From positions 1 through 44,185 of the IMG/VR virus record IMGVR_UViG_3300010885_023693: 44,185 nucleotides of DNA. One strand, written 5' to 3'. A program made the translations under genes and the position numbers. A model generated the notes under the pieces. It was not told the DNA's origin. It worked only from the letters and a program-made list of their open reading frames with translations, and searched no databases. This DNA is from a virus. Positions 1 to 42,418 of this stretch are shown here, piece after piece; within the stretch, counting starts at the first letter, position 1, and each line of letters starts with the position of its first letter.

Positions 1-2295
1 AGCACTGAATGTGTTGACTTGTGTTACACCGGTATATAGTGGTATTGCTGCACCTGACCAACCAGATTGACCAGCTACACCTTGTGTACCAGTATAACCG
101 CTTGTACCAGAGTAACCAGAAGTACCTGTAAAACCACTATAACCAGATATACCGGAACCACTATAACCTGAAATACCAGAATAACCAGATATACCAGTTG
201 CACCTGTAAAACCGCTGTAACCGCTTGCACCACTTACACCTGAATAACCGCTATAACCGCTTATACCAGACCAGCCTGACGAACCAGAGTAGCCAGTATA
301 GCCTGAAATACCTGTATAACCAGAATAGCCTTGAGTGCCTTGAAAACCTTGTGTACCTTGGAAACCTTGTACTCCTTGAAACCCTTGGGTGCCTTGAGAG
401 CCCTGGAAACCACTATAACCGGAATAACCAGCATTACCAGCTGATACCCAAACTACACCAGTACCAGTTGAAGCAAGTACATAGCCGCTTGAACCGAGAG
501 AGCTGTTTGCGTATATACCACCGGTAGCTGATAATGTACCGACTGATACCACACCACCGGGGCCAGGTGTTAATACTATATTGCCACTTGCCGCAGATAC
601 TAAAAATTGTAGACCATTTGTAGCTGATAATACACCAGAACCAGTAGAACCTACTACTAATGAAGATAATGTAGTAGTACCAGTTACATTTAAAGATGAG
701 AACGTAACACTGCTTGTAGTATTTAATTGTTGGTTAGCACCAGGACCTGAATAACCAGATACCCCACTACCACTATAACCACTGTAACCACTTGCACCAC
801 TACCACCAGAGTAACCAATACCAGAATAACCTGATATACCGGTATAACCGCTAACACCGGTGTAACCAGAAATGCCTGTAAAACCACTATAACCTGAAAT
901 ACCAGAATAACCAGATACACCAGAATAGCCTGAAAGACCTGTATAACCACTATAACCAGAAATGCCTGTAAAACCACTATAGCCTGAAATACCAGAATAG
1001 CCTGATATACCTGTATAGCCTGTAAAACCGGAATAGCCTGAAATACCAGTATAACCAGAAATACCACTACCGGAATAACCACTATAGCCTGATATACCAG
1101 AAGAACCGCTACCACCGGAATAACCAACACCAGAATAACCTGATATACCTGTATAACCAGACACACCGGTATAACCACTATAACCAGAAATACCAGATGC
1201 CCCGCTTATACCACTATAACCAGAATAGCCTGAAATACCTGTATAGCCTGAATAACCAGAAATGCCTGTATAACCACTGTAACCAGAAATACCTGTGTAA
1301 CCGCTTATACCTGTATAACCGGAAATACCTGTAAAACCGGAGTAACCAGAAATACCAGAACCGGAATAGCCTGATATACCAGTATAACCAGAAATGCCTG
1401 TAAAGCCTGAGTAACCTGATATACCAGTGTAACCACTTATACCTGTATAACCGCTGATACCGGTATAACCACTTATACCAGTATAACCACTATAACCAGA
1501 TATACCTGTAAAGCCGGAGTAACCAGAAATGCCTGTAAAACCAGAATAACCAGAAATACCGCTATAACCGCTTATACCAGTGTAGCCTGAAATACCTGTA
1601 AAGCCAGAATACCCTGATTGTCCAGATTGACCAACAGCACCACGGTAAATACCGGTTGAAATATTACTGTAATGATCTGTACCTAGATAATAAAATTGTA
1701 CACCAACACCTGTAGTAGCTGTTGTTATTGCAAATACTCTATATACTAACCGGTCTGTACCATCAGCAGTAAGATTGATCGGTGTAGTTATTGAATAGTT
1801 TTGAGTTTGTGTTTCTGGATTTGCAGTATCTGTATTAGTTAATGCATCTCCACGAGCAGAAAATAATAATGTTTCAGTACCGCCAGTTGTTCTACTGTAA
1901 ATAGAATGTATTAAATTAGTAGTACTAGAGCCTACATTTGTACCGGTAATTGAATAGTATGCTGTAAATGTCCAAGTACCTCTACTTAAAAATGCTAAAC
2001 TTGGATCCCCTACAGGGGTAATTAACTGACCAACTGTTGTAATACCTTGACTTGCACTAACTGTAAAACTTAAACTTGTTTGCGCTGCTGCTTGTGGTGT
2101 TTGACTTAAATAACCATATGTAATACCAATATCTGCTGCAGAACTTGTTGGATAATAAGTAACACCAACAGCTGGATTACCGGATTGACCAGAAAATCCT
2201 GACTGACCTGTATAACCAGATATACCTGAATAGCCAGATGAACCAGAAAATCCTATCGGTCCTTGAATTGCTTGATATACAAAAGTGTTACTCAT
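1..2295 (-). CDS. Collagen-like tail fibre protein A (3' end beyond the window)
   Basis: Translating leftward from ATG at 2295, the frame stays open to base 1 (765 codons), so the C-terminus is missing. Order: a short N-terminus (MSNTFVYQAIQGPIGFSG), a few Gly-X-Y triplets, a beta-rich globular domain at about residues 38-220, a collagen-like shaft of GYS/GIS/GFT triplets at about 222-518, a second globular segment at about 520-622 containing the fibre phrase LSATGGIYANSSLGSSGY, then a glutamine-type collagen stretch (GFQGTQG) that returns to GYSG triplets. The last visible residues (AAIPLYTGVTQVNTFSA) begin the GQVIYRT-type module found complete in the fibre genes at 8915, 11465 and 14864. 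Likely a trimeric virion fibre. The receptor is unknown. An AATAAATA box lies 6 nt before the start. Structural role is fairly sure, exact position on the virion is not. Confidence 0.85.
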   Translation of the reverse strand, partial: MSNTFVYQAIQGPIGFSGSSGYSGISGYTGQSGFSGQSGNPAVGVTYYPTSSAADIGITYGYLSQTPQAAAQTSLSFTVSASQGITTVGQLITPVGDPSLAFLSRGTWTFTAYYSITGTNVGSSTTNLIHSIYSRTTGGTETLLFSARGDALTNTDTANPETQTQNYSITTPINLTADGTDRLVYRVFAITTATTGVGVQFYYLGTDHYSNISTGIYRGAVGQSGQSGYSGFTGISGYTGISGYSGISGYSGFTGISGYSGFTGISGYSGYTGISGYTGISGYTGISGYTGISGYSGFTGISGYTGISGYSGSGISGYSGFTGISGYTGISGYTGISGYSGYTGISGYSGYTGISGYSGYSGISGASGISGYSGYTGVSGYTGISGYSGVGYSGGSGSSGISGYSGYSGSGISGYTGISGYSGFTGYTGISGYSGISGYSGFTGISGYSGYTGLSGYSGVSGYSGISGYSGFTGISGYTGVSGYTGISGYSGIGYSGGSGASGYSGYSGSGVSGYSGPGANQQLNTTSSVTFSSLNVTGTTTLSSLVVGSTGSGVLSATNGLQFLVSAASGNIVLTPGPGGVVSVGTLSATGGIYANSSLGSSGYVLASTGTGVVWVSAGNAGYSGYSGFQGSQGTQGFQGVQGFQGTQGFQGTQGYSGYTGISGYTGYSGSSGWSGISGYSGYSGVSGASGYSGFTGATGISGYSGISGYSGSGISGYSGFTGTSGYSGTSGYTGTQGVAGQSGWSGAAIPLYTGVTQVNTFSA

Positions 2296-2301
2296 TGTTT
2301 A

Positions 2302-2309
2302 TATTTATT
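2302..2309 (-). promoter_or_regulatory. TAAATA box before fibre gene A
   Basis: AATAAATA on the minus strand, 6 nt from the ATG at 2295. It resembles the T4 late promoter TATAAATA, and no Shine-Dalgarno sequence lies between it and the start. Confidence 0.45.
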
Positions 2310-3102
2310 AAGAAGACATATACCTCAATGAACCGACCATTGAAGCAGGTACAGAAAAGATATCTGGTGTAAGATTTACAGTTGATCCAGGGCTTATATT
2401 GTACAGTGTAAATCCTTGATTAGTACCTTCATTACCGCCTGTTATACCTTGACCCCCACCGGTAAGCCCGGCATAACGATAAACACTTAAATCTCCAAAC
2501 GGCATTAATAACGGGCCGTTTTCTACCGCGAACGGCAAATTAACTAAATAAAGATTAGCTGATTTTGATACACCTGTAAACGCAGATACTGATATATTAA
2601 AAGTGCAATACACATATCTACCAGTCTTTATATACGCCCCTACTGGTGTACCGCCACTATAACCTACAGCAGACAAAGCATACCCGGCGGCTGATATTTG
2701 AGGTACCCAGGTACCGCTAATTTGTGCTGCATAAGTACCAGATGGTGGCGCTACATAAGCTGTTATTTGACTGGTATTGTCACCAAATGTTATTGAACCA
2801 CCTGCTGAAGTAATAGTATAACTGGTTGATGAAATTTGACCGAACGTAGTAATGTTGCCTGCACTACTAGTATAAAAAGAAGTTGCACCGGTTATTGGGT
2901 TTAATATTTGTAAACCACCTCTACTAATAACAACATTACCAGATAAGTTAGCTACTTGTACCCCTGTTAAACCAGTTGTTTGATTAGCTAAATTAATAGA
3001 ACCAAATGATACGAATAGGTCCTTAAACGGACGGTTAAGAGTACCAATAGACCAAGCACTGGTTGAAGGAACGATTGATTGTTGAAAGTAGTTATAACTC
3101 AT
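2308..3102 (-). CDS. Tail fibre / virion structural protein without collagen repeats
   Basis: 264 residues. The N-terminal third holds a phrase common in phage fibre proteins (IVPSTSAWSIGTLNRPFKDLF), followed by beta-strand-rich sequence with alternating hydrophobic and small residues. The C-terminal part (about 125-264) looks like a compact beta-sandwich tip: it runs from GTWVPQISAAGY through GRYVYCTFNISV and YLVNLPFAV to SVPASMVGSLRYMSS. Similar C-terminal arrangements are familiar from T4-like cyanophage fibre proteins. It lies between two collagen-like fibre genes (1 bp from the next, 12 bp from the previous), so it is probably co-transcribed and may be a fibre tip or adaptor. A related phrase (IIPSASAWNVD) occurs near the C-terminus of the fibre encoded at 11465-14809. 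Confidence 0.7.
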   Translation of the reverse strand: MSYNYFQQSIVPSTSAWSIGTLNRPFKDLFVSFGSINLANQTTGLTGVQVANLSGNVVISRGGLQILNPITGATSFYTSSAGNITTFGQISSTSYTITSAGGSITFGDNTSQITAYVAPPSGTYAAQISGTWVPQISAAGYALSAVGYSGGTPVGAYIKTGRYVYCTFNISVSAFTGVSKSANLYLVNLPFAVENGPLLMPFGDLSVYRYAGLTGGGQGITGGNEGTNQGFTLYNISPGSTVNLTPDIFSVPASMVGSLRYMSS

Positions 3103-3103
3103 A

Positions 3104-6100
3104 TTATACGATATCCCAGTTGTTGTTAAAGATTAAATGTAAGCACCCATATGGCCCAATTAACTGTGCAAATGTTAACCCGTCAATAAGACTCGGTCCT
3201 GTTGCAGATACAGTTATTGATCTTGTAATACCGTCTAATGCACCAGATTCGTCTTTAATATAATAGTTCATACCTGCAACACCAACTGGTAACTGAACAG
3301 TCATTGCACCGTTATAATTTACACCAATATAGTAATCAGTTGCCTGTACTACATAAGGGGTGGTGTTGGTAGAAGTGGTTGCAACTAAATTCCCATATAT
3401 ACCAGAATTTTGTATACCGCGTTCATTTACTACTACTGCTGTAGTGGTGTCTATTGCACGCATTACTGGTTTAGATACTTGACCTATAGCACTTGGAGAT
3501 ACTGTTGTTAATGCACCGGATACTGTTGGTGATAAGAAATAACATTCTCCAGGGGTTAAGCTTGAAAGCCCTGTGATTAAACCATTGTATACAATTGAGA
3601 ATGTACTACTATTGGCCGACTGAATAACACCTGTAGCTTCAGCGTTCACAGCATTGTTTGCTATTGCAAGGTACCAGTTACCTGCTGCATCATCTAGTCT
3701 TACTACTTGCCCTGCACTAAACGAATTAGTATAAGTGATTGTTTGACTAGAAATATTAACTGTACTACCACTATAACCTGTATAACCAGAAATACCTGTA
3801 TAACCGCTATAACCACTAGCGCCTGTAAAACCGCTATAACCAGATATACCTGTATAACCACTAATACCAGTGTAACCAGAAACACCTGTAAAACCACTAT
3901 AGCCAGTAAAACCGCTGTAGCCAGAATAACTACTATAACCAGAATAACCTGTAAAGCCGCTATAACCGCTATAACCAGAAATGCCTGTATAACCAGAATA
4001 GCCAGATATACCACTCCAACCTGATGTACCGCTATAACCAGTATAACCGCTTATGCCAGTGTAACCGGAATAACCAGAAATACCAGTATAACCAGAGTAA
4101 CCACTTACACCTGTGTAACCAGTAATACCCGAATAACCTGAGGCACCTGAAGTGCCTGAAAAACCAGATGCACCATCAGAACCGGCATAACCTTGAGTAC
4201 CTGGGTCGCCTTGTGGTCCACTATAACCGGAAATACCACTGTAACCAGAAATACCAGAATAGCCTGATATACCAGAATAACCCGATATACCGGTATAACC
4301 ACTATAGCCAGATATACCTGTAAAACCACTATAACCTGATATACCGGTATAACCACTAATACCTGTGTAGCCACTATAACCAGAAATACCACTGTAGCCA
4401 CTATAACCAGATTCGCCTGAATAACCACTATAACCTGAAAGACCTGTATAACCAGAATAGCCGCTTATACCAGACTCGCCTGTAAAACCACTATAACCTG
4501 ATATACCAGTATAGCCAGAAATACCTGTATAACCTGAATAGCCAGAAATGCCTGTAAAACCAGAATAACCGCTATAACCAGATGTACCAGTAAAACCTGT
4601 AAAGCCTGAGTAGCCAGAAATACCAGTAAAACCAGAGTAACCAGACTCACCAGAATAACCAGTAAAGCCTGAATAACCTGAAATACCAGAATAGCCTGAT
4701 TCACCACTAAAGCCTGATACACCAGAATAACCAGAATAACCGCTGACACCGGTATAGCCAGTAAAACCGCTTATACCTGTATAACCAGAATAACCAGAAA
4801 TACCTGTATAGCCTGTTGTACCAGAATAACCAGATATACCACTAAAACCAGAATAACCAGAAATACCTGAACCAGAATAACCACTAATACCGGTATAACC
4901 TGAAATACCAGTAAAACCAGAATAACCAGACTCGCCAGAATAACCTGTATAGCCAGATATACCAGAGTAACCTGACTCTCCACTATAACCGGAATAACCT
5001 GAAGTGCCTGTAAAACCTGAGTACCCACTAATACCTGTGTATCCTGAATTACCTGAATAACCGCTTGTACCAGACTCGCCTGTAAAGCCTGAATAACCTG
5101 ATTCCCCAGTAAAGCCTGAGTAACCTGAAATACCGCTGTAGCCAGATTCTCCACTAAAGCCTGACACCCCTGAGTAACCAGAATAACCACTTATACCAGT
5201 ATAACCTGAATAACCAAAATTGCCTGAATAACCGGAGTAACCAGAAATACCAGAATAACCAATATCTCCTGTAAAACCAGAATAACCGCTTGTACCACTA
5301 TAACCTGTTAAACCAGATAAGCCTGTATAACCTGATAACCCGCTATAACCACTTAAACCGTCAATACCATTAGTACCAGAATAACCTGAACCACCAGAGT
5401 AACCACTATAACCTGAAATACCAGATTCACCAGTATAACCACTAATACCAGACTCCCCTGTAAAACCAGAATAACCAGATATACCAGAATAGCCAGTAAA
5501 GCCTGAATAACCAGACTCCCCAGAATAACCTGATACACCAGAATAACCACTATAACCTGATACACCGGTGTAACCTGATACACCAGAATAGCCTGTATAA
5601 CCACTAATACCAGAATAACCAGAAAAACCTGTAAGACCAGATTCTCCAGAGTAACCAGTAAAACCACTATAACCAGAAATACCTGTAAGACCGGTTAAAC
5701 CAGAATAACCACTATAACCTGAAAAACCTAAATCTCCACTAAAACCAGAAAAACCACTTATACCTGTATAACCTGAGAAACCAGAAATACCTGTATAACC
5801 TGAATAACCCGATATACCGGTATACCCCATATCACCTGAAAAACCTGAAATACCTGTGTAACCTGATACACCAGAATAACCTGTGTAGCCTGATATACCA
5901 GAATCTCCTACATACCCGCTATAGCCACTATAACCAGAAATACCAGTATAGCCTGTTTCACCACTATAACCTGTAAAGCCTGAAAAACCTGACTCACCAG
6001 AAAAACCAGATGTTCCTGTAAAGCCTGAATAACCAGACGTACCACTAAAACCTGATATACCAGTAAAGCCTGAAAAACCTGATATACCGGTAAAACCTGA

Positions 6101-6502
6101 TATACCACTAAAACCTGAAAAGCCTGATATACCAGAACTACCAGCATCTCCACTATAACCAGAGTAACCAGAGTAACCAGATATAGAAACTAATTGACCG
6201 TTTCTATAATAATTACCAGTAACATTAACATCCCCTGTTACATCTAATTTGTATTTTGGATCATTATTACCTATACCAACTGCACTACCACTTACTATTA
6301 AATTAGAATCATTACTAAATGCTCTTACCCCTTGAGTGTTTGAAAGTACTACATATTCTGCGCTTGCTGCACCAACTGCTACACCTAGATTTGGTTCAGC
6401 ATCTCTTAAGTTAAGAAATTGATAACGATCCCCTGCAGCACTCAGCGGCGGGTTAACCGGAGTTCTGTTGCTTATATATTGAGGATAATTATAAGTAGCC
6501 AT
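3104..6502 (-). CDS. Giant collagen-like tail fibre protein C (1132 aa)
   Basis: The longest shaft in the window. Residues 1-107 form a fibre-type N-terminal domain ending in VGIGNNDPKYKLDVTGDVNV, a phrase typical of phage fibre proteins. Residues about 108-911 are an almost unbroken Gly-X-Y run of GYS, GIS, GFT and GES triplets, with one conventional patch (GPQGDPGTQGYAGSDG). Residues about 912-1020 are a divergent copy of the GQVIYRT-type module (SAGQVVRLDDAAGNWYLAI). The last about 90 residues (YVVQATDYYIGVNYNGAMTV to NNNWDIV) match the C-terminal tip style of T4-like and cyanophage fibres. The ATG overlaps the last base of the upstream gene, suggesting translational coupling. If triple-helical, the shaft would be roughly 230 nm. 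Role in adsorption is inferred. Confidence 0.85.
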   Translation of the reverse strand: MATYNYPQYISNRTPVNPPLSAAGDRYQFLNLRDAEPNLGVAVGAASAEYVVLSNTQGVRAFSNDSNLIVSGSAVGIGNNDPKYKLDVTGDVNVTGNYYRNGQLVSISGYSGYSGYSGDAGSSGISGFSGFSGISGFTGISGFSGFTGISGFSGTSGYSGFTGTSGFSGESGFSGFTGYSGETGYTGISGYSGYSGYVGDSGISGYTGYSGVSGYTGISGFSGDMGYTGISGYSGYTGISGFSGYTGISGFSGFSGDLGFSGYSGYSGLTGLTGISGYSGFTGYSGESGLTGFSGYSGISGYTGYSGVSGYTGVSGYSGYSGVSGYSGESGYSGFTGYSGISGYSGFTGESGISGYTGESGISGYSGYSGGSGYSGTNGIDGLSGYSGLSGYTGLSGLTGYSGTSGYSGFTGDIGYSGISGYSGYSGNFGYSGYTGISGYSGYSGVSGFSGESGYSGISGYSGFTGESGYSGFTGESGTSGYSGNSGYTGISGYSGFTGTSGYSGYSGESGYSGISGYTGYSGESGYSGFTGISGYTGISGYSGSGISGYSGFSGISGYSGTTGYTGISGYSGYTGISGFTGYTGVSGYSGYSGVSGFSGESGYSGISGYSGFTGYSGESGYSGFTGISGYSGFTGFTGTSGYSGYSGFTGISGYSGYTGISGYTGISGYSGFTGESGISGYSGYTGLSGYSGYSGESGYSGYSGISGYSGYTGISGYTGISGYSGFTGISGYSGYTGISGYSGISGYSGISGYSGISGYSGPQGDPGTQGYAGSDGASGFSGTSGASGYSGITGYTGVSGYSGYTGISGYSGYTGISGYTGYSGTSGWSGISGYSGYTGISGYSGYSGFTGYSGYSSYSGYSGFTGYSGFTGVSGYTGISGYTGISGYSGFTGASGYSGYTGISGYTGYSGSTVNISSQTITYTNSFSAGQVVRLDDAAGNWYLAIANNAVNAEATGVIQSANSSTFSIVYNGLITGLSSLTPGECYFLSPTVSGALTTVSPSAIGQVSKPVMRAIDTTTAVVVNERGIQNSGIYGNLVATTSTNTTPYVVQATDYYIGVNYNGAMTVQLPVGVAGMNYYIKDESGALDGITRSITVSATGPSLIDGLTFAQLIGPYGCLHLIFNNNWDIV
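3765..6180 (-). repeat. Collagen-like Gly-X-Ser/Thr coding repeat, about 800 residues
   Basis: About 2.4 kb of 9-bp codon-triplet repeats, read on the minus strand as Gly then Tyr/Phe/Ile/Glu/Val/Leu then Ser/Thr. Glycine and serine codons vary synonymously, so the DNA is a degenerate rather than an exact tandem repeat. Proline is almost absent. Confidence 0.9.
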
Positions 6503-6843
6503 TAGGGTGTATTAACTGCTTCAAGTACTGATAAAGTAAAATTAAGCGCAGAATTTACTGCGCTGTATGTTACAAGTTGATCGGCTGTACCTAAAACTAG
6601 TTTACCCACTGCTACATTTAAAGCGTCATTTGAAGGAACTGGAAACTCGTGTAATATATCATGATACAAACCATCCGAGCCTGAAATACCCACAGTTATT
6701 GTTTGTGTACTGCCGGTTAAATTGGTTGCAAGGCCAGATAATATAATACCAGCGCGTTTGTCTGGAGCAGTGTAAACAACTGTTGGAGTCGTAGTTACTA
6801 ATGTTGTTACACGTCGGAAATAATTTAGTGGTATAGTGGCCAT
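6502..6843 (-). CDS. Small virion structural protein (113 aa)
   Basis: 113 residues, beta-rich, no signal peptide or membrane segment. Visible pattern: TPTVVYTAPDKRAGIILSGL near the start, a glycine/serine-flanked middle, then LNVAVGKLVLGTADQLVTYS and a C-terminal LNFTLSVLEAVNTP. Small proteins with this VVYTAP ... GKLVL ... LSVLE arrangement sit among fibre and structural genes of T4-like aquatic phages and are usually labelled virion structural. Its stop shares a base with the next fibre gene's start at 6502. It may be a fibre-attachment or decoration subunit. Its exact role cannot be read from the sequence. Confidence 0.65.
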   Translation of the reverse strand: MATIPLNYFRRVTTLVTTTPTVVYTAPDKRAGIILSGLATNLTGSTQTITVGISGSDGLYHDILHEFPVPSNDALNVAVGKLVLGTADQLVTYSAVNSALNFTLSVLEAVNTP

Positions 6844-6862
6844 ATACTTTAATATACTTACT

Positions 6863-8881
6863 TTATTCTAGTGCTAACGTCAATGGTGTCACTAAAGACA
6901 ATATAGATTTATTGAACACGTCGCCTTGTATAGTTCCAGTTGATTGTACGATAGTAAATCCACTACCTACTTTAAAGTTACCTAATTGATTAGTACTGGT
7001 ATAGTAAACAGCGCCGCCATTGGTTGCTACTGCTTCATTATTTGGATTACCTACACCACCTAAGGCAGGTATAGCTGATGTAATTTCTGTACCAGAACCG
7101 ACGTATTCCATCGTATGAGCACTAGTTGTAACTGTACTTCTTATATAAAATTTTATTAATGCACCAGCTGATAAATACACAACAGCATTGTTTACTGTAA
7201 CAATATCATAACCATAGTTTACTCCATCAGTTAATGCTACACTATCTATTGTATATAATGTGTCACTTGGATCCCCGTCTATTGTGAACACTAAACCCAC
7301 ATAGGGATTATCTACAGGACAATCGTATTGATCTGGTGGTCTTGGTGTAGCGTTTGTAACTGAAATTATATTATTATTAACAAACACTGCAGATGCTAGT
7401 GTTGCTGTTAATACCGGAGATGTAGAATAACCATCTGCAACGATACCGGATAAACCAAAGGAACAATTAGAAGTATTAATTGAGCATGTTCCACCACTAT
7501 CTGCTCGAATACCTTCTGTACAACAAATTGTAAACGTAGATACTAATTGTGCGTAACCGTTATTAAGAATATGTATACCTTGACCGCCTTGATTGTACTG
7601 AGTATAAGAATCAATAACAAAGCTTCTTAAATAGCCTCTTACCAGACTACCGTCAATTCTTAAACCTGCACCAGCAGCAATACCTGCAGAAGCACTAGTA
7701 ATAGAACTACTACCCTGTATATAAGGACTTGTTGTAGAAAATGGTTTTACTGTTGGTGCTGTTATTTCGTAGCCAGCTGTATTAAATGCTATTGCATACT
7801 GTGGGTCACTTGCAGATAGTACTGGGAATGCACAAGCAGCACCCGGTGCTAAATGTTCTCTAAATGTAACACCCCAAACGTAACACCCTGGATTACACCA
7901 TAAAATATCATACTGTCTATTAATAGGTATGATACTGCACCGCTTCAAATTATCCCCAATAATAGATGTATTAGTAGGGAGATAAATTGGGTTATTTTCT
8001 CTATACGCACCAGAACCTAAAAATATTGTATATTTTGATGAAGTGTTAGCTGCAGCAATTGCTACTGCTTTTTTAATTGTTGCTAAAGGCTGTGTTGGGT
8101 TAAGACCGTTATTGTTATCATTACCATTTTCTGAAACATATAGCCTGTTAGCTATATCAACTGTATCATATGTAAAACCACTGACTGCAGATAAAAACCC
8201 TGTTGCTGTTGCTGTTGTACCATTATCTACAATTGTACTAGCAACTAAAGAATTTAAACCGGTAAAAACTGGTATATAACCAGAAGTACCTGAACCGGCA
8301 AATGCACCACTTGTACCAGAATAACCGCTATAACCATTAGCACCTGAATAACCAGAAGTACCAGAATCACCTTTTACTTGACCAACATCAGTCCATACCC
8401 CGCTACCATATACCCATAAATGTCCAAGTGTTTCATCTATAACACCATTACCGTTAGTAGCAGACGGAAATGCTGCATTTAAAGTTGCTTGCGGGTCATT
8501 TGGTGGGGCGACGTAAACATTTGGTATAGTACCAATAATTGTTACTGATGAACCATTAATACCAGAATAACCAGAAAGACCTATGCCAGAATAACCTGAT
8601 ATACCAGTATACCCAGAATAACCAGTGAAACCGCTACGGCCAGAATAACCTGAAATACCTGTATAACCAGAATAACTACTATAACCAGATTTACCACTAT
8701 AACCGGAATAACCTGTAAAGCCGCTATAACCAGAATAGCCTGTTGTACCAGAATAACCTGTATAACCAGATGTACCGGAATAGCCTGTATAACCTGAAAC
8801 ACCTGAACCACTAAAACCGCTATAACCTGATGAGCCTGAAATACCTACGGTGTTATATGTATATGCAAAAGGAGTGGCCAT
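6863..8881 (-). CDS. Collagen-like fibre protein E with pectate-lyase-like beta-helix domain
   Basis: 672 residues. It starts with the anchor peptide MATPFAYTYNTVGISG, shared in form with the next two fibre genes, then a short collagen-like stretch (about 12-105) and the SVTIIGTIPNVYV...LWVYGSGVWTDVGQVKGDSG module (about 107-175). A second short GYSG stretch follows. From about residue 247 the protein switches to a parallel beta-helix-like domain: LYVSENGNDNNNGLNPTQPL, then ATIKKAVAIAAA, IFLGSGAYRENNPIYLP and TSIIGDNLKRCSIIP. This motif set is well known in cyanophage structural proteins and resembles pectate-lyase folds. The domain could bind or cleave surface polysaccharide, but no catalytic residues can be assigned by eye. 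The C-terminal about 170 residues are unassigned beta-rich sequence. Confidence 0.85.
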   Translation of the reverse strand: MATPFAYTYNTVGISGSSGYSGFSGSGVSGYTGYSGTSGYTGYSGTTGYSGYSGFTGYSGYSGKSGYSSYSGYTGISGYSGRSGFTGYSGYTGISGYSGIGLSGYSGINGSSVTIIGTIPNVYVAPPNDPQATLNAAFPSATNGNGVIDETLGHLWVYGSGVWTDVGQVKGDSGTSGYSGANGYSGYSGTSGAFAGSGTSGYIPVFTGLNSLVASTIVDNGTTATATGFLSAVSGFTYDTVDIANRLYVSENGNDNNNGLNPTQPLATIKKAVAIAAANTSSKYTIFLGSGAYRENNPIYLPTNTSIIGDNLKRCSIIPINRQYDILWCNPGCYVWGVTFREHLAPGAACAFPVLSASDPQYAIAFNTAGYEITAPTVKPFSTTSPYIQGSSSITSASAGIAAGAGLRIDGSLVRGYLRSFVIDSYTQYNQGGQGIHILNNGYAQLVSTFTICCTEGIRADSGGTCSINTSNCSFGLSGIVADGYSTSPVLTATLASAVFVNNNIISVTNATPRPPDQYDCPVDNPYVGLVFTIDGDPSDTLYTIDSVALTDGVNYGYDIVTVNNAVVYLSAGALIKFYIRSTVTTSAHTMEYVGSGTEITSAIPALGGVGNPNNEAVATNGGAVYYTSTNQLGNFKVGSGFTIVQSTGTIQGDVFNKSILSLVTPLTLALE

Positions 8882-8891
8882 GTGTATTATA

Positions 8892-8899
8892 TATTTATG
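8892..8899 (-). promoter_or_regulatory. TAAATA box before fibre gene E
   Basis: CATAAATA on the minus strand, 10 nt before the ATG at 8881, one mismatch from the T4 late promoter consensus TATAAATA. Confidence 0.5.
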
Positions 8900-8914
8900 C
8901 CGTTAAAGCACATA

Positions 8915-11392: not shown

Positions 11393-11401
11393 AGACTTAT
11401 A

Positions 11402-11409
11402 TATTTACT
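11402..11409 (-). promoter_or_regulatory. TAAATA box before fibre gene F
   Basis: AGTAAATA on the minus strand, 9 nt before the ATG at 11392, the same placement as in the two flanking fibre genes that share its N-terminal peptide. Confidence 0.4.
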
Positions 11410-11464
11410 TAAAGTTAAATAGTTATAACTGATTTAACATGTAAATTATAAGAATTTGTTGCTA

Positions 11465-14400
11465 TTAAGCGCCAGGTCTTGTTCTTACTGCAAAGAATGT
11501 ATAAGATTGTGTACCTGCTTCGTCTGCTGTAAATGTATATCCGTTGTTACCGTTACCAGCAACTGAGCCTACATTACCACCACCGGATTTGCCTAAGCTA
11601 AATGCAGCACCACTACCACATAAGAACATTTCGACAGATCCTGATCCCCAACAATTAACTGTTAAAATGCCAGAGAAATCATTAAATGCAACAGTACTAA
11701 AACGTGCAAGGTGATATACGTTATCTGAAACATCAACATTCCAAGCACTAGCGCTTGGTATTATAGAACTATAAATAGGCCCTCTTGCAGATAAACCACC
11801 GTTTACTGTTAAATTAGCGTTGTCATCTTTTAGTATGCCGTCCCCTATAGTATTGCTATTTACCCATTTACCATAATAACCGCTTGTACCATTGCTTATA
11901 CCGTCAATAATAACAGCTGGGTACTCAACTACAATACCGTCTGTACTGTTGATACCAGTTAGTATTGGTTTAATTAAAGAGCCTAGAGCTGTTGGTGGTA
12001 CATTTGTTAATGCACCTGGAGTAACGTCAGAAAGATAATAATTAACTCCAGCATAAAGACCGGAAAGATAAGTTATATAACCGTTAATTATATATGTAAA
12101 ATTGGTACCATCAGATTGCTGTACAACACCAATTGCATCTGATGTAGCAGGATCATCTGCAAGTGCTAAAGAGTAATTACCATCTGTAGTTCTATAAATT
12201 ACTTGACCTGCAGTAAACGCATTGGAGTAGCCGTAAACTGTTTGTTGTAATGGAGCTGCTGTACCAGAATAACCTGTGTAACCGCTATAACCAGATACAC
12301 CAGAATAACCACTATAGCCAGTAAAACCAGAATAACCAGTAAAGCCACTATAACCTGATATACCAGTATAACCTGAAGCAGCAAATAATGACCAAGAAAG
12401 ATCTGAAGGAGGTATGGTATTACCGTAAACACTATTAATACAAATGTATGTAGAGCCTTGATAACTAACTAAATCACCAGGTACATATGTACCATAAGTT
12501 GTACCAGACCAACCACCACGAGGCACTAAACCATAGCCTGAATAACCACTAATACCAGATTCACCAGTAAAGCCTGAATAGCCTGAAATACCTGTATAAC
12601 CAGAATAACCAGATTCACCACTATAACCGCTGTATCCAGATTCACCAGAGTAACCAGTGTAACCTGAAATACCAGAGTAGCCGCTTATACCAGTATAGCC
12701 TGAATAACCAGATTCACCAGAATAGCCGGTAAAGCCAGAATAACCTGAAATACCTGTATAGCCTGAATAACCACTAATACCAGATTCACCTGTAAAACCA
12801 GAATAGCCTGAAATACCAGACCAGCCAGAGTAACCTGATTCACCAGAGTAGCCTGTAAAGCCGGAATAACCACTAATACCAGTATAACCAGAATAACCGC
12901 TTATACCAGAGTAACCTGTAAAGCCGGAATAACCACTAATACCAGTATAACCAGAATAACCACTAATACCAGATTCACCAGTAAAGCCTGAGTAACCTGA
13001 AATACCTGACCAACCGCTATAACCAGATTCACCAGAATAGCCTGAAATACCAGAGTAGCCTGAAATACCAGTATAACCAGACGTACCTGAATAACCACTA
13101 TAGCCGGAAATACCTGAATAACCAGAAGCGCCGGTTTGACCTGTCACACAAATTACTACACCACCTTGAGTTTTATAACCAGGGTATTGAGAATCTGTAA
13201 TTGTTGCACTAAGTCCGCCAGTTGCTGGATCATAGGAACTAACCAACATGTGCTGTCCGACATTGTCACCTGGTGCGTATACAGATAATACCTGACCAGC
13301 AGACCATGCCATTCCTACATATGAAGGACCGTTGTAAAGTTGATCTACGGATTGAAAATAATAATCTCCTACTATGAACGGGGTGCAGAGTAAAGGAGTA
13401 TAACCTGATATACCAGATTCACCGGTAAAGCCAGAATAACCACTTATACCACTATATCCTGAAATACCAGAGTAACCGGATTCGCCTGAAAAACCAGAAT
13501 AACCAGAAATACCAGACCAGCCTGACCAACCAGATGTACCAGAATCTCCTTTTACTTGACCGACATCTGACCAATTACCGCCTGAATGTATTTGTACTGT
13601 GGTCGGAGCTGAGAAATTTTGAGGTGTTGCTAATGTTAAATCGTAATACGTACCGTTAACATCTGAACCAGGTACTACTTGGGTGATATCTGTTTGAGAT
13701 GTGCCGTCTGTAACTGTTGAGCCACTAACTGGAGTAACAGCAGGATTTGAAGCGTATACCCGTAAATGGCTTGTATCACTTTGATTTGTACCACCGTAAA
13801 ATAATGCTGTTGGGTAAACAATTATTGTTTCATTGCTATATACCCATAAATGACCGGTTGTTTCATCTATAATACCATCTCCGTTAATAGCATATGGAGC
13901 TGCAGTATTTAAAGTTGCTTGAGGGTCATTTGGTGGGTTTACATATGCATCAGTTACGTATGTTATAATTCTTACTGATGAACCATTTTGACCTGAAAAG
14001 CCAGAAAAGCCTGTAAAGCCAGAATAACCTGAAATACCTGTATAACCACTAATACCTGTAAAACCAGAATAACCTGTAAAGCCGCTATAACCAGATTCAC
14101 CAGAATAGCCTGTGAAACCGCTGTAACCAGAAATACCTGTGTAACCGCTATAACCACTAATACCTGTAAAGCCAGAATAACCTGTAAAGCCGCTGTAACC
14201 GGATTCACCAGAATAGCCGGTAAAACCACTGTAACCGCTTATACCTGTATAACCACTAAAACCAGACTCACCAGAATAGCCTGTAAAACCAGAATAACCA
14301 GAAATACCAGACCAGCCGGAATATCCAGATTCGCCAGAATAACCAGTAAAGCCGCTATAACCACTTAAACCTGTATAGCCTGAATAACCAGATTCACCAG

Positions 14401-14809
14401 AATAACCTGTAAATCCTGAGTAACCTGAAATACCTGTATAGCCTGAATAACCACTTATACCAGACTCACCACTAAAACCTGTATAACCACTAATACCAGA
14501 CCAACCACTATAACCAGATTCACCAGAATAACCTGTAAAACCACTATAACCACTTAAACCTGTATAACCACTAAAACCGCTTATACCTGACTCTCCAGTA
14601 AAGCCTGAATAGCCTGAAATACCAGTGTAACCAGAATAGCTAGAATAACCGCTAATACCTGAGTAACCAGATTCCCCACTATAGCCAGATATACCTGAGT
14701 AGCCAGATATACCAGAGTAACCAGACACCCCGCTACCTGAAAAGCCGGAATATCCTGAAAAACCTACTGGGTTGTATGTATAAGAAAATGGTCTAGATGG
14801 GATGGACAT
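11465..14809 (-). CDS. Giant modular collagen-like fibre protein G (1114 aa)
   Basis: Order: anchor peptide (PFSYTYNPVGFSG); GYSG shaft to about 275; a TIIGT-type module that is split (NPPNDPQATLN at about 290 and NWSDVGQVKGDSG at about 416) by an extra about 80-residue beta-rich insert; a short shaft; a globular domain at about 470-560 (WSAGQVLSVYAPGDNVGQHM, SSYDPATGGLSATITD); shaft; a carbohydrate-binding-module-like domain at about 760-812 (GGWSGTTYGTYVPGDLVSYQ, TYICINS, DLSWSLF), recalling CBM5/12; shaft; the GQVIYRTTDGNYSLALADDP module (about 848-1000); and a unique C-terminal about 105 residues ending FFAVRTRPGA. The most module-rich fibre in the window. Polysaccharide binding is inferred from the CBM-like aromatic/GD pattern. 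Confidence 0.85.
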   Translation of the reverse strand: MSIPSRPFSYTYNPVGFSGYSGFSGSGVSGYSGISGYSGISGYSGESGYSGISGYSSYSGYTGISGYSGFTGESGISGFSGYTGLSGYSGFTGYSGESGYSGWSGISGYTGFSGESGISGYSGYTGISGYSGFTGYSGESGYSGYTGLSGYSGFTGYSGESGYSGWSGISGYSGFTGYSGESGFSGYTGISGYSGFTGYSGESGYSGFTGYSGFTGISGYSGYTGISGYSGFTGYSGESGYSGFTGYSGFTGISGYTGISGYSGFTGFSGFSGQNGSSVRIITYVTDAYVNPPNDPQATLNTAAPYAINGDGIIDETTGHLWVYSNETIIVYPTALFYGGTNQSDTSHLRVYASNPAVTPVSGSTVTDGTSQTDITQVVPGSDVNGTYYDLTLATPQNFSAPTTVQIHSGGNWSDVGQVKGDSGTSGWSGWSGISGYSGFSGESGYSGISGYSGISGYSGFTGESGISGYTPLLCTPFIVGDYYFQSVDQLYNGPSYVGMAWSAGQVLSVYAPGDNVGQHMLVSSYDPATGGLSATITDSQYPGYKTQGGVVICVTGQTGASGYSGISGYSGYSGTSGYTGISGYSGISGYSGESGYSGWSGISGYSGFTGESGISGYSGYTGISGYSGFTGYSGISGYSGYTGISGYSGFTGYSGESGYSGWSGISGYSGFTGESGISGYSGYTGISGYSGFTGYSGESGYSGYTGISGYSGISGYTGYSGESGYSGYSGESGYSGYTGISGYSGFTGESGISGYSGYGLVPRGGWSGTTYGTYVPGDLVSYQGSTYICINSVYGNTIPPSDLSWSLFAASGYTGISGYSGFTGYSGFTGYSGYSGVSGYSGYTGYSGTAAPLQQTVYGYSNAFTAGQVIYRTTDGNYSLALADDPATSDAIGVVQQSDGTNFTYIINGYITYLSGLYAGVNYYLSDVTPGALTNVPPTALGSLIKPILTGINSTDGIVVEYPAVIIDGISNGTSGYYGKWVNSNTIGDGILKDDNANLTVNGGLSARGPIYSSIIPSASAWNVDVSDNVYHLARFSTVAFNDFSGILTVNCWGSGSVEMFLCGSGAAFSLGKSGGGNVGSVAGNGNNGYTFTADEAGTQSYTFFAVRTRPGA
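12852..12961 (-). repeat. Recent 63-bp tandem duplication in the fibre G shaft
   Basis: A 47-bp stretch starting CCTGTAAAGCCGGAATAACC at 12852 recurs identically at 12915. The 63-bp period equals 21 residues or seven triplets, so frame and Gly phase are kept. Confidence 0.8.
14047..14236 (-). repeat. Diverged 108-bp tandem duplication in the fibre G shaft
   Basis: An 82-bp segment at 14047 recurs at 14155 (period 108 bp, 36 residues). The few base differences fall at third codon positions and the encoded triplet order is the same in both copies. Confidence 0.75.
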
Positions 14810-14818
14810 GGTTATATA

Positions 14819-14826
14819 TATTTATA
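14819..14826 (-). promoter_or_regulatory. Exact T4-type late promoter box before fibre gene G
   Basis: TATAAATA on the minus strand, identical to the T4 late consensus, 9 nt before the ATG at 14809 in an A+T-only spacer that lacks any Shine-Dalgarno sequence. Confidence 0.6.
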
Positions 14827-14863
14827 TAAAAAAATATTAATTTTAGAGTTTATAAAAAAAAAA

Positions 14864-17275
14864 TTAAAAATACATTTGATACCAAGTAGGTATACTATTA
14901 ATTGTACCAGCATACACCCAGGTGATAGGTTGTCCTCCAAAGCCTGAATTATTTGATATATCCAAATAGGCAGCAATTGCTGAAGCGCCTTGCCCGAATG
15001 TAAATCCACCGTCAGGACCATTTTGTAAAGTATTAACAGCTTGCCCAGATGCTGGTAAAAATATAAGTTTAGATACACTGCTGCCAGTTGCAACGGGTAT
15101 TGAAAAGGCGTCCCCTACACTAGGACTAGATGGAAATTGTACCACTAACCCTAACGAACTGCCACTCACAGTGGAATTATTAATTAACAATGTTTTTGTA
15201 CCTGTAGCTATTTGCTTACCATAAGCAGTCTGATTGTTATATGTAACATCAGTTGGACTACCACCGTAGAAGAATTGCTTTACTACACCAGTTAATGTAT
15301 ATCTAGTCCAGAAATTATCTGCTTTTGTACTTAAAACCCAAACATCAGAATAATTAATAGAACCACTGCCATTACCTGCAGGACCTTGCGCTCCAGAATA
15401 TCCAGAATAACCTGAAGCTCCACCACCACCACCAGTTACACCATATATAGTACCGGTAGCAGACAGATTACCTATAATGGTAACTGTAACATTATCATCT
15501 GTAATTAAACCCGTACCGATAACTTGAGTGCCTGACCATTTAGCATAATAACCACTCATACCTGAACTAATACCATCAATAATAACTGGAGGGTACTCAA
15601 CAACTATACCGCTATTTGTACCTAAACCTGTTAATATAGGTTTAATAAGAGAGCCTGGTGCTGTAGGTACTGTAGTGGTAATTTGTCCTGCAATAGTATC
15701 AGATAAATAATAATTTACTCCGTCTACAATACCGGTTAAGTTAGTAATATAACCATTTATAACATAAACAAATGAGGTTGTATCTGCATACTGTATAACA
15801 CCAACAGCATCGCATTTATTTGGATCATTAGCTATAGCTAATTCGTATGTACTATCTGTAGCTCTATAGATTACTTGACCAGGAGTAAATGAATTTGCAT
15901 AACCTGTTACTTGTTGAAATAGTGGTGCTGCTGTACCTGAGTAACCTGATACCCCACTACCACTATAACCACTAATACCTGATTGACCTGTGAAGCCGCT
16001 ATAACCACTTATACCAGTGTAACCTGAAATACCAGAATAACCAGATATACCAGATTCGCCAGTAAATCCAGAATAACCAGATATACCAGATTCGCCAGTA
16101 AAACCTGAATAGCCAGAATAACCACTAATACCGCTATAACCAGATTCGCCAGAATAACCAGATATACCTGAATAACCACTATAACCACTGATACCTGATT
16201 CACCAGTAAAGCCTGAATAACCAGACATACCAGATTCACCTGTGAATCCAGAATAACCACTGATACCTGATTCTCCAGTAAAGCCTGAGTAGCCGCTTAT
16301 ACCTGATTCACCTGTAGAACCGCTATAGCCAGATTCGCCAGAATAACCTGTAAAACCTGAATAGCCTGATGTACCGCTATAACCAGAAATACCAGACCAG
16401 CCAGAATCACCTTTTATTTGACCGACATCAACCCAAGTACCGTTACCATAGACCCATAAATGGCCTGTTGTTTCATCTATAACACCACTACCAGATGTTG
16501 CAGAAGGATAGGCTGCATTAAGAGTTGCCTGTGGGTCATTAGGCGGGTTAACGTATACATTTGGTACTGTACCAATAATAGTAACAGAAGTACCATTTAT
16601 GCCTGAGTAACCTGAGTAACCAGATACGCCTGATCCACTATAACCACTTATACCAGACTCGCCTGTAAAACCTGAGTAACCTGATATACCACTAAAGCCT
16701 GAGTAGCCTGATATACCGGACTCGCCTGTAAAGCCTGAGTAACCACTTATACCAGAATAACCCGAATAACCGCTTATACCTGATTCGCCAGTAAAGCCTG
16801 AATAACCTGATATACCGGACTCACCTGTAAAGCCTGAGTAACCGCTTATACCAGATTCGCCTGTAAAACCAGAATAACCTGATTCTCCGCTATAACCAGA
16901 CGTACCTGAATAACCTGATATACCGGACTCGCCTGTAAATCCAGAATAACCAGATATACCAGTGTAACCCGAAATACCAGAATAACCACTTGTACCAGAA
17001 TAACCTGAAGTACCATTTGTACCGGACTGCCCACCAACAGCTACTAAATCTGCATTAGCAGTACCTGCCCCATACCAATATAAATAAGGATTACCAGCAA
17101 TAATGAGCCGGACCTGCATTGTCTGAAACCTTACAGATGATGGTATAGCTGCATTAGCTGCTGAAAGTGCAATTGCTTCTGTTGAACCTACATACGGGCC
17201 TGACCATGTGTCAACTGGTAATGGGTTGACTGGTTGAACACCGTACGGTAATTGTAATCCTGGGTTGAGTGGCAT
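14864..17275 (-). CDS. Collagen-like fibre protein H (803 aa)
   Basis: The N-terminal about 85 residues differ from the other fibres: LPYGVQPVNPLPVDTWSGPY, then AANAAIPSSVRFQTMQVRL and YLYWYGAGTANADLV, a head seen in aquatic T4-like phage structural proteins. Then a GYSG/GES shaft (about 88-225), the SVTIIGTVPNVYV...LWVYGNGTWVDVGQIKGDSG module (about 228-295), a second shaft (to about 445), the GQVIYRATDSTYELAIANDP module (about 447-585) with its SGISSGMSGYYAKW tail, one short collagen piece (SGYSGAQGPAG) and a unique C-terminal domain (about 640-803) ending INSIPTWYQMYF. The repeated ESGISGYSGFTG unit makes its shafts very regular. Inferred: a virion fibre with its own attachment site, because its N-terminus is not the shared anchor peptide. 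Confidence 0.85.
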   Translation of the reverse strand: MPLNPGLQLPYGVQPVNPLPVDTWSGPYVGSTEAIALSAANAAIPSSVRFQTMQVRLIIAGNPYLYWYGAGTANADLVAVGGQSGTNGTSGYSGTSGYSGISGYTGISGYSGFTGESGISGYSGTSGYSGESGYSGFTGESGISGYSGFTGESGISGYSGFTGESGISGYSGYSGISGYSGFTGESGISGYSGFSGISGYSGFTGESGISGYSGSGVSGYSGYSGINGTSVTIIGTVPNVYVNPPNDPQATLNAAYPSATSGSGVIDETTGHLWVYGNGTWVDVGQIKGDSGWSGISGYSGTSGYSGFTGYSGESGYSGSTGESGISGYSGFTGESGISGYSGFTGESGMSGYSGFTGESGISGYSGYSGISGYSGESGYSGISGYSGYSGFTGESGISGYSGFTGESGISGYSGISGYTGISGYSGFTGQSGISGYSGSGVSGYSGTAAPLFQQVTGYANSFTPGQVIYRATDSTYELAIANDPNKCDAVGVIQYADTTSFVYVINGYITNLTGIVDGVNYYLSDTIAGQITTTVPTAPGSLIKPILTGLGTNSGIVVEYPPVIIDGISSGMSGYYAKWSGTQVIGTGLITDDNVTVTIIGNLSATGTIYGVTGGGGGASGYSGYSGAQGPAGNGSGSINYSDVWVLSTKADNFWTRYTLTGVVKQFFYGGSPTDVTYNNQTAYGKQIATGTKTLLINNSTVSGSSLGLVVQFPSSPSVGDAFSIPVATGSSVSKLIFLPASGQAVNTLQNGPDGGFTFGQGASAIAAYLDISNNSGFGGQPITWVYAGTINSIPTWYQMYF

Positions 17276-17281
17276 TTTAAA

Positions 17282-17289
17282 TATTTATT
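17282..17289 (-). promoter_or_regulatory. TAAATA box before fibre gene H
   Basis: AATAAATA on the minus strand, 6 nt before the ATG at 17275. It overlaps the end of the upstream gene. Confidence 0.45.
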
Positions 17290-19477
17290 AGGACCAAGTT
17301 ATTTGATGTCTATGAGATGCAGTATAAGGTATAGCATTAGTTAATGTGTAAATATTATAAGAGGTTGCTGTACCTGCTCGGTTATAAACATTACCAGCAC
17401 TTAATACATATGTAATAGAAGCATTAAGAGCATCTAAATCAATTACACTAGACACTGTATGGGGTGTTGGTAAAGCTATTGAGAAATTATTATACACATT
17501 ACCAGTACTCAATATAAACGGACTACCTAATGTAGATAATAACGCATTGTATGGTAGCGATCTAATACTATTTGAATCTATTGGAGCAGAAGCTTCGGGT
17601 CCATACCATATTAAATTATAAAAATTAACTATAGAACTTGTTGAAGTACCAGTACTATAACTATCCGTTGCAACAACCTGGTATTGTATACTTGTTGCAG
17701 CACTTACTGTAGGTACAGCAAATACAATATTTGTTGAAGACAACGTACTTGTGTTAGGTCCAACGTTTGCAGATGCTAAAAATACATAAGTGCCACCGTT
17801 TACAGAGTAGTTTAGTTTATAGGAACTCAACGGTACGTAATTGCTATTGTTATGCTGTGTAATTGTACCAGTAAGATAGCTACAAGTGTTGCCTATTTCT
17901 CTTGCATAAGCTGTTTCTGTAGCTGTTATACTTGAAGCAGCTACTGTAATAACTGTAGTAGGTGCAATATAGGCAGTAGGGGCTATATTGACTGTTGCTA
18001 CTGCAGTGGTGTATACAGTATCTGTAACTATATATTGATAATTAAATGGCTGAGTATTATAATTTGTATCAGTTAATATATGAGTATATGTTGTAGCAGA
18101 TGTTGTATTAGTAAGTGTTGTCCAACTACCTGTGTTGTTTCTTCTCCATTGTAAAGTAGTAGCAGATACTGAAGCACCTTGAGTATTAATTGTATAATTA
18201 AAATTTAATATATTGGTTATAGCTGTTTGATTAAACGCTATAGTTGTGGGTGTTGTTAATATTACATCTGGTGCAATATTTTCTGCAATTGCCATCGTTA
18301 TAACATCAGCAGGAGTCTTGCCTGTTGCAGGTATAATACTACCGTTTACGTATTTACCAAATGTTTTACCGCTTGCTAAGCTAACAGTTAAGTCACTAGG
18401 GAATACATATTGTGCACCACTATAACCAGATACTCCAGAACCACTATAACCAGATACTCCAGAACCACTATAACCGGAATAACCGCTAACACCTGTAAAG
18501 CCTGAATAACCACTAACACCAGTATAACCTGAAATACCAGACCAACCAGATATACCGGAATCTCCTTTTATTTGACCTACATTGTTCCATACTGTACCAC
18601 TATAAACCCATAAATTACCAGTATCTTCAGCAATGACTCCATTACCGGCTACAGCGCTTGGAAATGCTGTAGTTAATGTACTTTGATTAACAACTGTTGG
18701 TACAGTACCGATAATAGTAACTGAGGTGCCGTTCTGACCAGAATAACCAGAGTAGCCTGAAACCCCACTTATACCACTATAACCGGAATAACCACTAATA
18801 CCTGTAAAACCCGATATACCTGTATAACCAGAAATACCAGAATAACCACTGTTACCTGATATACCTGTAAAACCAGAATAACCAGAAATACCTATAACGC
18901 CTGAATAACCAGAAATACCTATAAAACCTGAATAACCAGAAATACCAGAATAACCACTGTCACCTGATATACCTATAAGGCCTGAATAGCCAGAAATACC
19001 TGAATAACCGCTATTACCGATATAACCGCTATAACCTGATATACCTATAAGGCCTGAATAGCCAGAAATACCAGAATAACCACTGTCACCAATATTACCG
19101 CTATAACCTGATATACCACTAAAACCAGACTTACCTGCATAGCCTGAAATACCACTATAACCAGACTCCCCAGAATAGCCTGACTCTCCTGCATATCCTG
19201 AAATACCACTATAACCAGACTCCCCTGTATAGCCACTTATACCAATATAACCAGATATACCAGACCAACCAGATATACCGGAATAACCACTTGCACCGGA
19301 ATAACCGTTACCGCCACCACCACCTATACCTGATAATGCTGATAATGCAATCGAATACGTTGTAAAACTACCATCTCCATTAGCTTGTTCAACAAATATT
19401 AAATCGCTCGGTTTTGGCGAAACATTTAGCGGTAGCTCGTGCGGGTAAACAATTGTTGGGTACTGAGTATCAGCCAT
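17288..19477 (-). CDS. Collagen-like fibre protein I with Ig-like C-terminal repeats
   Basis: 729 residues. The N-terminal about 55 residues (YPTIVYPHELPLNVSPKPSD, then LIFVEQANGDGSFTTYSIA) are again unique. The shaft (about 60-240) uses many GLI, GFI, GYI and GVI triplets in place of Ser/Thr endings. The SVTIIGTVPTVV...LWVYSGTVWNNVGQIKGDSG module follows (about 246-310), then short collagen. The C-terminal half contains two or three Ig/FnIII-like beta-sandwich stretches: NILNFNYTINTQGASVSATT, TYTHILTDTNYNTQPFNYQY and IQYQVVATDSYSTGTSTSSI. The last about 105 residues end in SHRHQITWS. Ig-like domains are common add-ons of tailed-phage virion proteins that bind weakly to carbohydrate. Binding here is inferred. 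Confidence 0.85.
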   Translation of the reverse strand: MADTQYPTIVYPHELPLNVSPKPSDLIFVEQANGDGSFTTYSIALSALSGIGGGGGNGYSGASGYSGISGWSGISGYIGISGYTGESGYSGISGYAGESGYSGESGYSGISGYAGKSGFSGISGYSGNIGDSGYSGISGYSGLIGISGYSGYIGNSGYSGISGYSGLIGISGDSGYSGISGYSGFIGISGYSGVIGISGYSGFTGISGNSGYSGISGYTGISGFTGISGYSGYSGISGVSGYSGYSGQNGTSVTIIGTVPTVVNQSTLTTAFPSAVAGNGVIAEDTGNLWVYSGTVWNNVGQIKGDSGISGWSGISGYTGVSGYSGFTGVSGYSGYSGSGVSGYSGSGVSGYSGAQYVFPSDLTVSLASGKTFGKYVNGSIIPATGKTPADVITMAIAENIAPDVILTTPTTIAFNQTAITNILNFNYTINTQGASVSATTLQWRRNNTGSWTTLTNTTSATTYTHILTDTNYNTQPFNYQYIVTDTVYTTAVATVNIAPTAYIAPTTVITVAASSITATETAYAREIGNTCSYLTGTITQHNNSNYVPLSSYKLNYSVNGGTYVFLASANVGPNTSTLSSTNIVFAVPTVSAATSIQYQVVATDSYSTGTSTSSIVNFYNLIWYGPEASAPIDSNSIRSLPYNALLSTLGSPFILSTGNVYNNFSIALPTPHTVSSVIDLDALNASITYVLSAGNVYNRAGTATSYNIYTLTNAIPYTASHRHQITWS
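18963..19072 (-). repeat. 72-bp tandem duplication in the fibre I shaft
   Basis: The 38-bp sequence beginning CCTGATATACCTATAAGGCC at 18963 recurs identically at 19035. The 72-bp period is 24 residues or eight triplets, preserving frame. Confidence 0.75.
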
Positions 19478-19484: not shown

Positions 19485-19492
19485 TACTTAGT
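19485..19492 (-). promoter_or_regulatory. TAAGTA box before fibre gene I
   Basis: ACTAAGTA on the minus strand, 7 nt before the ATG at 19477. It is the G variant of the box seen at several other starts. Confidence 0.35.
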
Positions 19493-25198: not shown

Positions 25199-25813
25199 AT
25201 GGCAACAGGTCAACCTATACAACAACAATCTGTTCTTAACAAAAGTAGAAAAGATAAATTTCAATTAATATTGGATTTACCTGATGCGCTTAAAAAAATA
25301 AACATATTAGATCAGGGCAGCAGAGAAAGTGATAAAGTAAGTTTAGATTCTTTACAGTATTCAGTTTACGGTACTGTTGTGCCTCAAACTACAATTAATC
25401 CTGTTACTTTACCTTTTGCTGGTCAATCTTTAAATTTAACTTCAGGTAAAAGAGAAAAATATCAAGACATAACAGTAAGTTTTACTGTTGACAATTATTA
25501 CAATAATTGGTGGGTACTGTGGAAGTGGTTAGACTACATTAACGGCTCTACAAATAGTTTACTTGATCCGGATAGTTTAACGACATTACCTTTTGCGCCT
25601 ATAAACTATGCAGGTACAGCAAATTTACAGCCATACCAAACAACTGTTACTGTATACGGTTTAGATGAGTATAATAATAAGAAAATCCGTTGGATATATA
25701 GTAAAGCTTTTATTACAAATTTAACTGGAATAACTTATAATTATAGGGATGCTGATCAAATGGAATCTTCATTTACATTTTCATTTAGTCAATTAACTTC
25801 AGAATTACTTTAA
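25199..25813 (+). CDS. Tail-tube-fold protein, diverged (204 aa)
   Basis: Beta-rich protein with features of the gp19/tube fold: LDSLQYSVYGTVVPQTTINP, LPFAGQSLNLTSGKREKYQD, ITVSFTVDNYYNNWWVLWKW, and a C-terminal strand pair (IRWIYSKAFITNLTGITYNY, then DQMESSFTFSFSQL). The pattern of a VP-type loop, a PFAGQ/PG-type turn, a VSFTVD strand and a C-terminal Y..ADQMESSFTFSFSQL matches tube-like proteins in contractile tails. It sits just before the sheath gene, so it may be a tube initiator, terminator or neck-adjacent ring rather than the main tube subunit. An AAGGAAAATAA lead just before ATG provides one of the few Shine-Dalgarno-like starts. Confidence 0.55.
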   Translation: MATGQPIQQQSVLNKSRKDKFQLILDLPDALKKINILDQGSRESDKVSLDSLQYSVYGTVVPQTTINPVTLPFAGQSLNLTSGKREKYQDITVSFTVDNYYNNWWVLWKWLDYINGSTNSLLDPDSLTTLPFAPINYAGTANLQPYQTTVTVYGLDEYNNKKIRWIYSKAFITNLTGITYNYRDADQMESSFTFSFSQLTSELL

Positions 25814-42339: not shown

Positions 42340-42418
42340 CTTACCCTCATTATTAGTGTTCATCTACAATAAAAACTTGCACAAGCAAGCCTGAGGGTGA
42401 GATTTTTTTCATTGTAAA

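Follow-up and report, generated by a model that had tools for sequence, protein, structure and literature searches.

A virus fragment of 44,185 nucleotides (IMG/VR record IMGVR_UViG_3300010885_023693, hereafter the window) carries beside an Hc2-like neck gene an array of nine genes. Seven of these encode collagen-type fibres, and one of the remaining two was recently exchanged with other phages. The products of the array are probably late-expressed trimeric adhesins, several of them carried by one kind of N-terminal anchor, that evolve by exchange of cassettes and tips within a neck-side host-recognition cluster. ORF calling showed that positions 1 to 19477 are filled by nine consecutive, packed ORFs, all on the minus strand and with intergenic gaps of -1 to 72 bp; they were named in order of transcription F1, F2, F3, F4, F5, f6, F7, f8, and F9. 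Pfam profile searches matched the Collagen family (PF01391) above its cut-off in seven of the nine genes, with E-values from 1e-11 to 3e-119, and no shaft occurs in f6 (6502-6843, 113 aa) and f8 (2308-3102, 264 aa). These results confirm an earlier note on this DNA, which had described nine minus-strand genes in a row, seven of them collagen-like, and support its view that adhesion is a major investment of this phage. The window is a linear fragment whose end cuts F9 (1-2295), so that seven collagen-type genes are a minimum; all other ORFs of the array are intact. Repeat-driven misassembly is unlikely, since the longest exact DNA repeat within the array reaches only 47 bp. A megablast search of the window against phage records gave no match.

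The array is bordered by a putative neck gene (19488..20495, minus strand) whose product resembles the head closure protein Hc2 (phrog_679, E 7.7e-7). This protein has counterparts at 23 IMG/VR loci with 66-78% identity and at two more with 44%, and gave no tblastn match in phage records and no match in the PDB. As in the host-recognition clusters of aquatic T4-like phages, the surroundings are a T4-like structural core that includes the terminase (phrog_2, E 2.2e-49), the sheath (phrog_23, E 2.4e-66), and a tail tube protein (phrog_45) near the array, as well as hub and wedge proteins and a Phage_base_V protein. The terminase matched 2547 phage records, mostly T4-like phages, with 29-35% identity among the matches listed; a search of genome contigs for a terminase relative that might provide a clue to the host found none. 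Pelagimyophages and cyanomyophages have a hypervariable host-recognition cluster bounded by VrlC and the neck gene gp14 (PMC7029224). The array follows the Hc2-like neck gene; judged from the PHROG profile call of that gene, the start of the array likely corresponds to this known site, and the array is probably the first part of the hypervariable cluster of an aquatic T4-like myovirus. In one relative, PHROG scans of selected genes did not recognise VrlC, the window itself being cut.

Several other genes were observed in the window. A nucleotidyltransferase-domain gene (24131-25198, plus strand; PF01909, E 3.1e-7; phrog_36119) lies beside the tail genes and has relatives in the same place in other contigs (60% in L014, 53% in G018). 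The sheath gene (25863-28151, plus strand, 762 aa), of which the best phage-record match covers only 41%, in the C-terminal part, is surrounded by four tail-tube-like genes (phrog_45; 25199-25813, 28172-28693, 28765-29322, and 29331-29996, plus strand). A homing-endonuclease-like gene (phrog_314, E 1.3e-13) occupies positions 41725-42363 on the minus strand.

The earlier note had set the array against the few fibre genes of T4, a contrast that overstates its oddity, as long neck-side fibre arrays are normal in aquatic T4-like phages (PMC7029224). The cluster described in that study is, as the present one probably is too, a hypervariable, fibre-rich island beside a neck gene, and triple collagen repeats were noted there in unidentified structural proteins. 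The window differs from it in its run of at least seven collagen-type fibres, in its distinct anchor types, and in the visible movement of cassettes. In the Prochlorococcus phage P-SSM2, too, about ten tail-fibre, collar, and hypothetical genes stand in a row, with a relative of the F5 distal region and with Collagen matches in several ORFs of the array; these are weak matches, however, with a best E of 1.5e-7, and the P-SSM2 array follows a tail lysozyme gene.

The shafts are collagen-like by periodicity, not by composition. The longest uninterrupted Gly-X-Y runs range from 13 to 146 triplets among the collagen-type genes, lengths that are not explicable by chance. Over 948 triplets, the X position is occupied by Tyr, Ile, or Phe in 73% of cases and by Pro in about 1%, and the Y position by Ser or Thr in 89%, giving a Gly-(Tyr/Ile/Phe)-(Ser/Thr) pattern in place of the Pro-rich X and Y positions of classical collagen. 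With so little proline, a true collagen triple helix may not form. Repeats of 24 nucleotides are more frequent in the shafts than in synonymous-codon shuffles (316 vs 124 +/- 29) and occur mostly within genes; selection against DNA repeats in the shafts was rejected on this ground. Searches of phage records with the shaft gave no match, a result of little weight with the low-complexity filter on. Each collagen-type gene would encode a trimeric adhesin in which the shaft, variable in length, serves as a spacer between a short N-terminal anchor docking on the virion and a distal domain touching the cell surface.

Based on their sequences, the array genes are mosaics of conserved N-terminal anchors, shafts, reused inner domains, and differing distal domains. 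F1 (17288..19477, 729 aa; PF01391 E 2.9e-30) starts with anchor type a (YPxIVYPHELP), which is common to the first genes of relatives: in several lineages it opens the first gene after the neck, while the distal part varies between them. The distal region of F1 (17291..18409) is 67% identical to that of G005 and 45-51% identical to its counterparts in L172/L173. F2 (14864..17275, 803 aa; E 2.3e-41) carries anchor type c, and its N-terminus shares 74% identity with G005 and 49-51% with L172/L173. The F1-F2 pair is also present in L172/L173, contigs devoid of any collagen match, and the shafts accordingly look like an added module as far as these sequences indicate. Anchor type b, M..FxY...GxSG(F/Y)SG, starts F3 (11465..14809, 1114 aa; E 2.5e-75), F4 (8915..11392, 825 aa; E 6.7e-39), F5 (6863..8881, 672 aa; E 1.2e-11), and the 3'-open F9 (E 7.5e-57). 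F7 (3104..6502, 1132 aa; E 3e-119) has an N-terminal type of its own. Once the shafts were masked, a linker of about 58 aa was found to recur in F1, F2, F3, and F5, and a domain of about 105-130 aa, designated D2, in F2, F3, F4, and F7. The suggestion of the earlier note that each fibre has a different head or tip therefore stands for the distal domains, the only fibre parts that differ throughout, but not for the linker and the D2 domain, each shared by four fibres.

Carbohydrate-binding signals in the array are weak; F3 contains a CBM5/12-like insert (12374..12529; PF14600, E 6.2e-6) whose 26.5 bits just missed the cut-off of 27. F4 likely ends in a C1q/TNF-like domain (8918..9454), as suggested by weak Pfam C1q signals in three of three homologues (best E 0.026) together with a structure model of the tip that matched TNF/C1q proteins with a confidence too low to stand alone. 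The distal region of F5 (6866..8299; phrog_17885, E 6.3e-65; PF07602, E 2.3e-5) has a beta-helix-type signal (DUF1565, of the pectate-lyase type) that is also found in cyanophages, and it matched 147 marine phage records. The shaft-less f6 gene (phrog_1276, E 2.5e-8) follows. The same arrangement is seen again in G032, G034, and G039, where an f6-like gene, its product 34-39% identical to f6, each time lies between an F5-like gene and a collagen gene or adjoins a collagen gene. Among these, G032 (L174-L176) and G034 (L177-L178) belong to distant phages, and their collagen ORFs beside the F5-like and f6-like genes reach about 2880 aa. When IMG/VR was scanned with f6 or with the distal domains of F2, F3, and F4, no relative was detected; these negatives are weak, since homologues of the F2 tip, the F4 tip, and f6 are present in other contigs of this analysis, which shows that the scan misses relatives.

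The anchor b motif is also found in three genes each of G002, G003, and G005, and 18 fibres in all bear it. Sharing this motif, F3, F4, F5, and F9 are likely to dock at one kind of site. These fibres might then compete for one kind of socket, each particle receiving a random mixture, a mixed coat that we regard as possible but rather doubtful. Besides the common N-terminus, which may however only start trimer folding, the separate late-promoter-like elements of the genes (see below) are consistent with such a mixture; F1, F2, and F7 have other anchors, which predict other sites. Equally tentatively, the motif could act as a docking code, any fibre bearing it entering the same socket so that the phage shows a mosaic of fibres. 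If so, a newly arrived tip would work at once.

F7 ends in a region designated the E tip (3107..3760), which combines a D2-type domain with a distal domain resembling XD1 (about 3107-3361), with 54-71% identity in 10 homologues and no match in phage records. The model of this tip has a mean pLDDT of 56.7, but its distal 85 aa mostly reach 75-87, and the fold match holds for this distal part only. There, Foldseek retrieved T4 gp9, T4 gp10, CBA120 TSP4, and CpaA, the same proteins that were reported as the structural matches of the XD1 domain (PMC8825819). This raises the question of whether the fibres bind each other in one composite apparatus, a fixed branched complex like those of RaK2 and CBA120 that would sit on the baseplate or neck and be joined through the XD1-like E tip or other inner domains. 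The assembly of ten fibre proteins in one adsorption complex of RaK2 (PMC10253068) and the gene order kept in sub-cassettes favour such a complex, as does the XD1 set matched by the E tip, yet XD1 apparently serves as a spacer, and the same fold acts elsewhere as a glycan-binding domain (PMC8825819). Moreover, the partner-binding modules XD2 and XD3 were not found in the two tips modelled, and the number of array members varies between relatives, which a fixed complex would resist; we thus hold this arrangement to be somewhat unlikely. RaK2 and CBA120/kuttervirus phages (PMC10253068, PMC8825819, PMC11414711) do resemble the present phage in having several receptor-binding proteins per phage, an XD1-like fold, and exchange of receptor-binding genes. 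In contrast to them, the phage studied here has Gly-X-Y shafts and only one beta-helix-type tip, and no XD2/XD3 was recognised in its two modelled tips.

Some fibres could instead decorate the capsid or collar, in the manner of SPP1 gp12 or the T4 whiskers, and promote retention on surfaces rather than the choice of a host. The array adjoins a neck gene, head fibres have been described, the collagen-like gp12 among them (PMC7602432), and phage CBB has whiskers on its tail (PMC5259590); nevertheless, the distal domains are of the tail-fibre type and no capsid-binding module was recognised, so that we consider a decorative role unlikely. SPP1 gp12 (PMC7602432) is likewise phage-encoded and collagen-like, and is a trimeric virion protein, but it is one single capsid-decorating protein. 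A mixed coat, one branched apparatus, and head or tail decoration look alike at the level of sequence and are not mutually exclusive.

The reading that we favour, in which the array encodes late-expressed adhesins, also draws on promoter-like sequences. Of the 32 genes in the window, 17 have a TAARTA motif in the 25 bp before their start, compared with 3 on the antisense strand and 4.1 in shuffles; the motif precedes six of the seven collagen-type genes in the same interval, and relatives agree. Late promoters are TATAAATA in T4 and NATAAATA in cyanophage (PMC2984593). Read directly, the element before F3 is TAAATA (14819..14824, minus strand), and a motif search placed similar elements at about 2302-2307, 6855-6860, 8892-8897, 11402-11407, 17282-17287, and 19485-19490 on the same strand; the positions were read directly for F3, F9, and F4. 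These elements are predicted promoters, from which most of the genes would be expressed together with the structural proteins. As they precede six of the seven collagen-type genes, it is unlikely that most genes of the array are silent. This bears on the view that few of the proteins are incorporated and that the array is mainly a reserve of unused tips, a stock for recombination. Strong cassette exchange and the excess of shaft repeats over synonymous shuffles would suit a reserve, but the late-promoter-like elements and the intact state of every ORF other than the cut one make it improbable.

Relatives of the array were compared by ORF calling on whole contigs. Directly after the neck gene, the first array contains four collagen genes each in G002 and G003, five in G005, and a minimum of seven in the window; the short contig G007 has at least two. 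This variable, non-syntenic fibre content with swapped distal domains is typical of the aquatic host-recognition clusters, and the gain and loss of single members, for which the earlier note had proposed to search related genomes, is real as judged from these gene counts. In G002, G003, and G005, the first array is followed by genes of unassigned function and then by about three more collagen genes, giving seven or eight per contig; the whole genome therefore probably encodes more of them than are visible in the window. In G002 and G003, the region extending from the neck gene up to a gene of 1751 or 1769 aa spans about 40 kb and includes seven collagen genes. Further along the same region, G002 has a collagen-type gene of 2185 aa (49180-55737, starting in L041).

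Overlooked by the earlier note, along with the mosaic exchange, is the recent transfer of the 264-aa gene f8 (2308..3102, minus strand), which encodes a putative receptor-binding-type protein. G007 and G017 have versions of it that are 97% identical, with third codon positions 98.5-98.9% identical. Across all three sequences (window, G007, G017), the f8 proteins share 97.0-98.5% identity and the third codon positions 98.5-99.6%, while the third positions of the terminase, neck, and sheath genes are only 49-65% identical in pairwise comparisons of the window, G007, and G001. With third positions nearly unchanged in f8 against this divergence of the core, the exchange of f8 must be recent. The near-identical segment shared with G007 has its breakpoints at about the gene edges; L071/L072 share mainly the distal part of the f8 protein, indicating that exchange works below the gene level too. 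Between f8 of the window and the others, 10 base differences fall in changed codons and 1-2 are silent, which is only suggestive of positive selection, the counts being too few to test. The set of E-tip fibre, f8, and anchor-b fibre was found at three sites: in the neck array (window, G007), at the portal gene (phrog_213; G016, G017, G019), and at the terminase gene (G018). The third place of the set is taken in G017 by a 204-aa protein that combines anchor b with an F4-type tip. G017 is in part collinear with the left end of G001 (46-99% identity), which puts the portal-side copy in the same wider lineage; the possibility that G016/G017 represent an unrelated phage was rejected on this basis. 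Host contact would evolve through swaps of distal domains and through cassettes of two to three genes moving within and between phages.

Multi-fibre clusters and collagen-like repeats were already known in aquatic T4-like phages. Within the reach of our searches, the following are new: how many shafts there are and of what kind, the classes of anchors, the relatives of F1-F2 that lack a shaft, and the recent exchange of f8, which could be measured. The Tyr/Ile/Ser-type Gly-X-Y shaft is an unusual candidate material, and raises the question of whether a triple helix can form almost without proline. With the comparison of f8, the gene flow that affects host-recognition parts can be measured directly in a natural phage community, and, if the docking code holds, the freely moving f8 set would be a plug-in module of the local phage population. 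With its constant anchors, expandable shafts, exchangeable tips, and mobile cassettes, the array provides a concrete anatomy for how aquatic T4-like phages may keep and renew many adhesins, and the parts visibly swapped between phages suggest how such viruses keep changing their adhesion targets.
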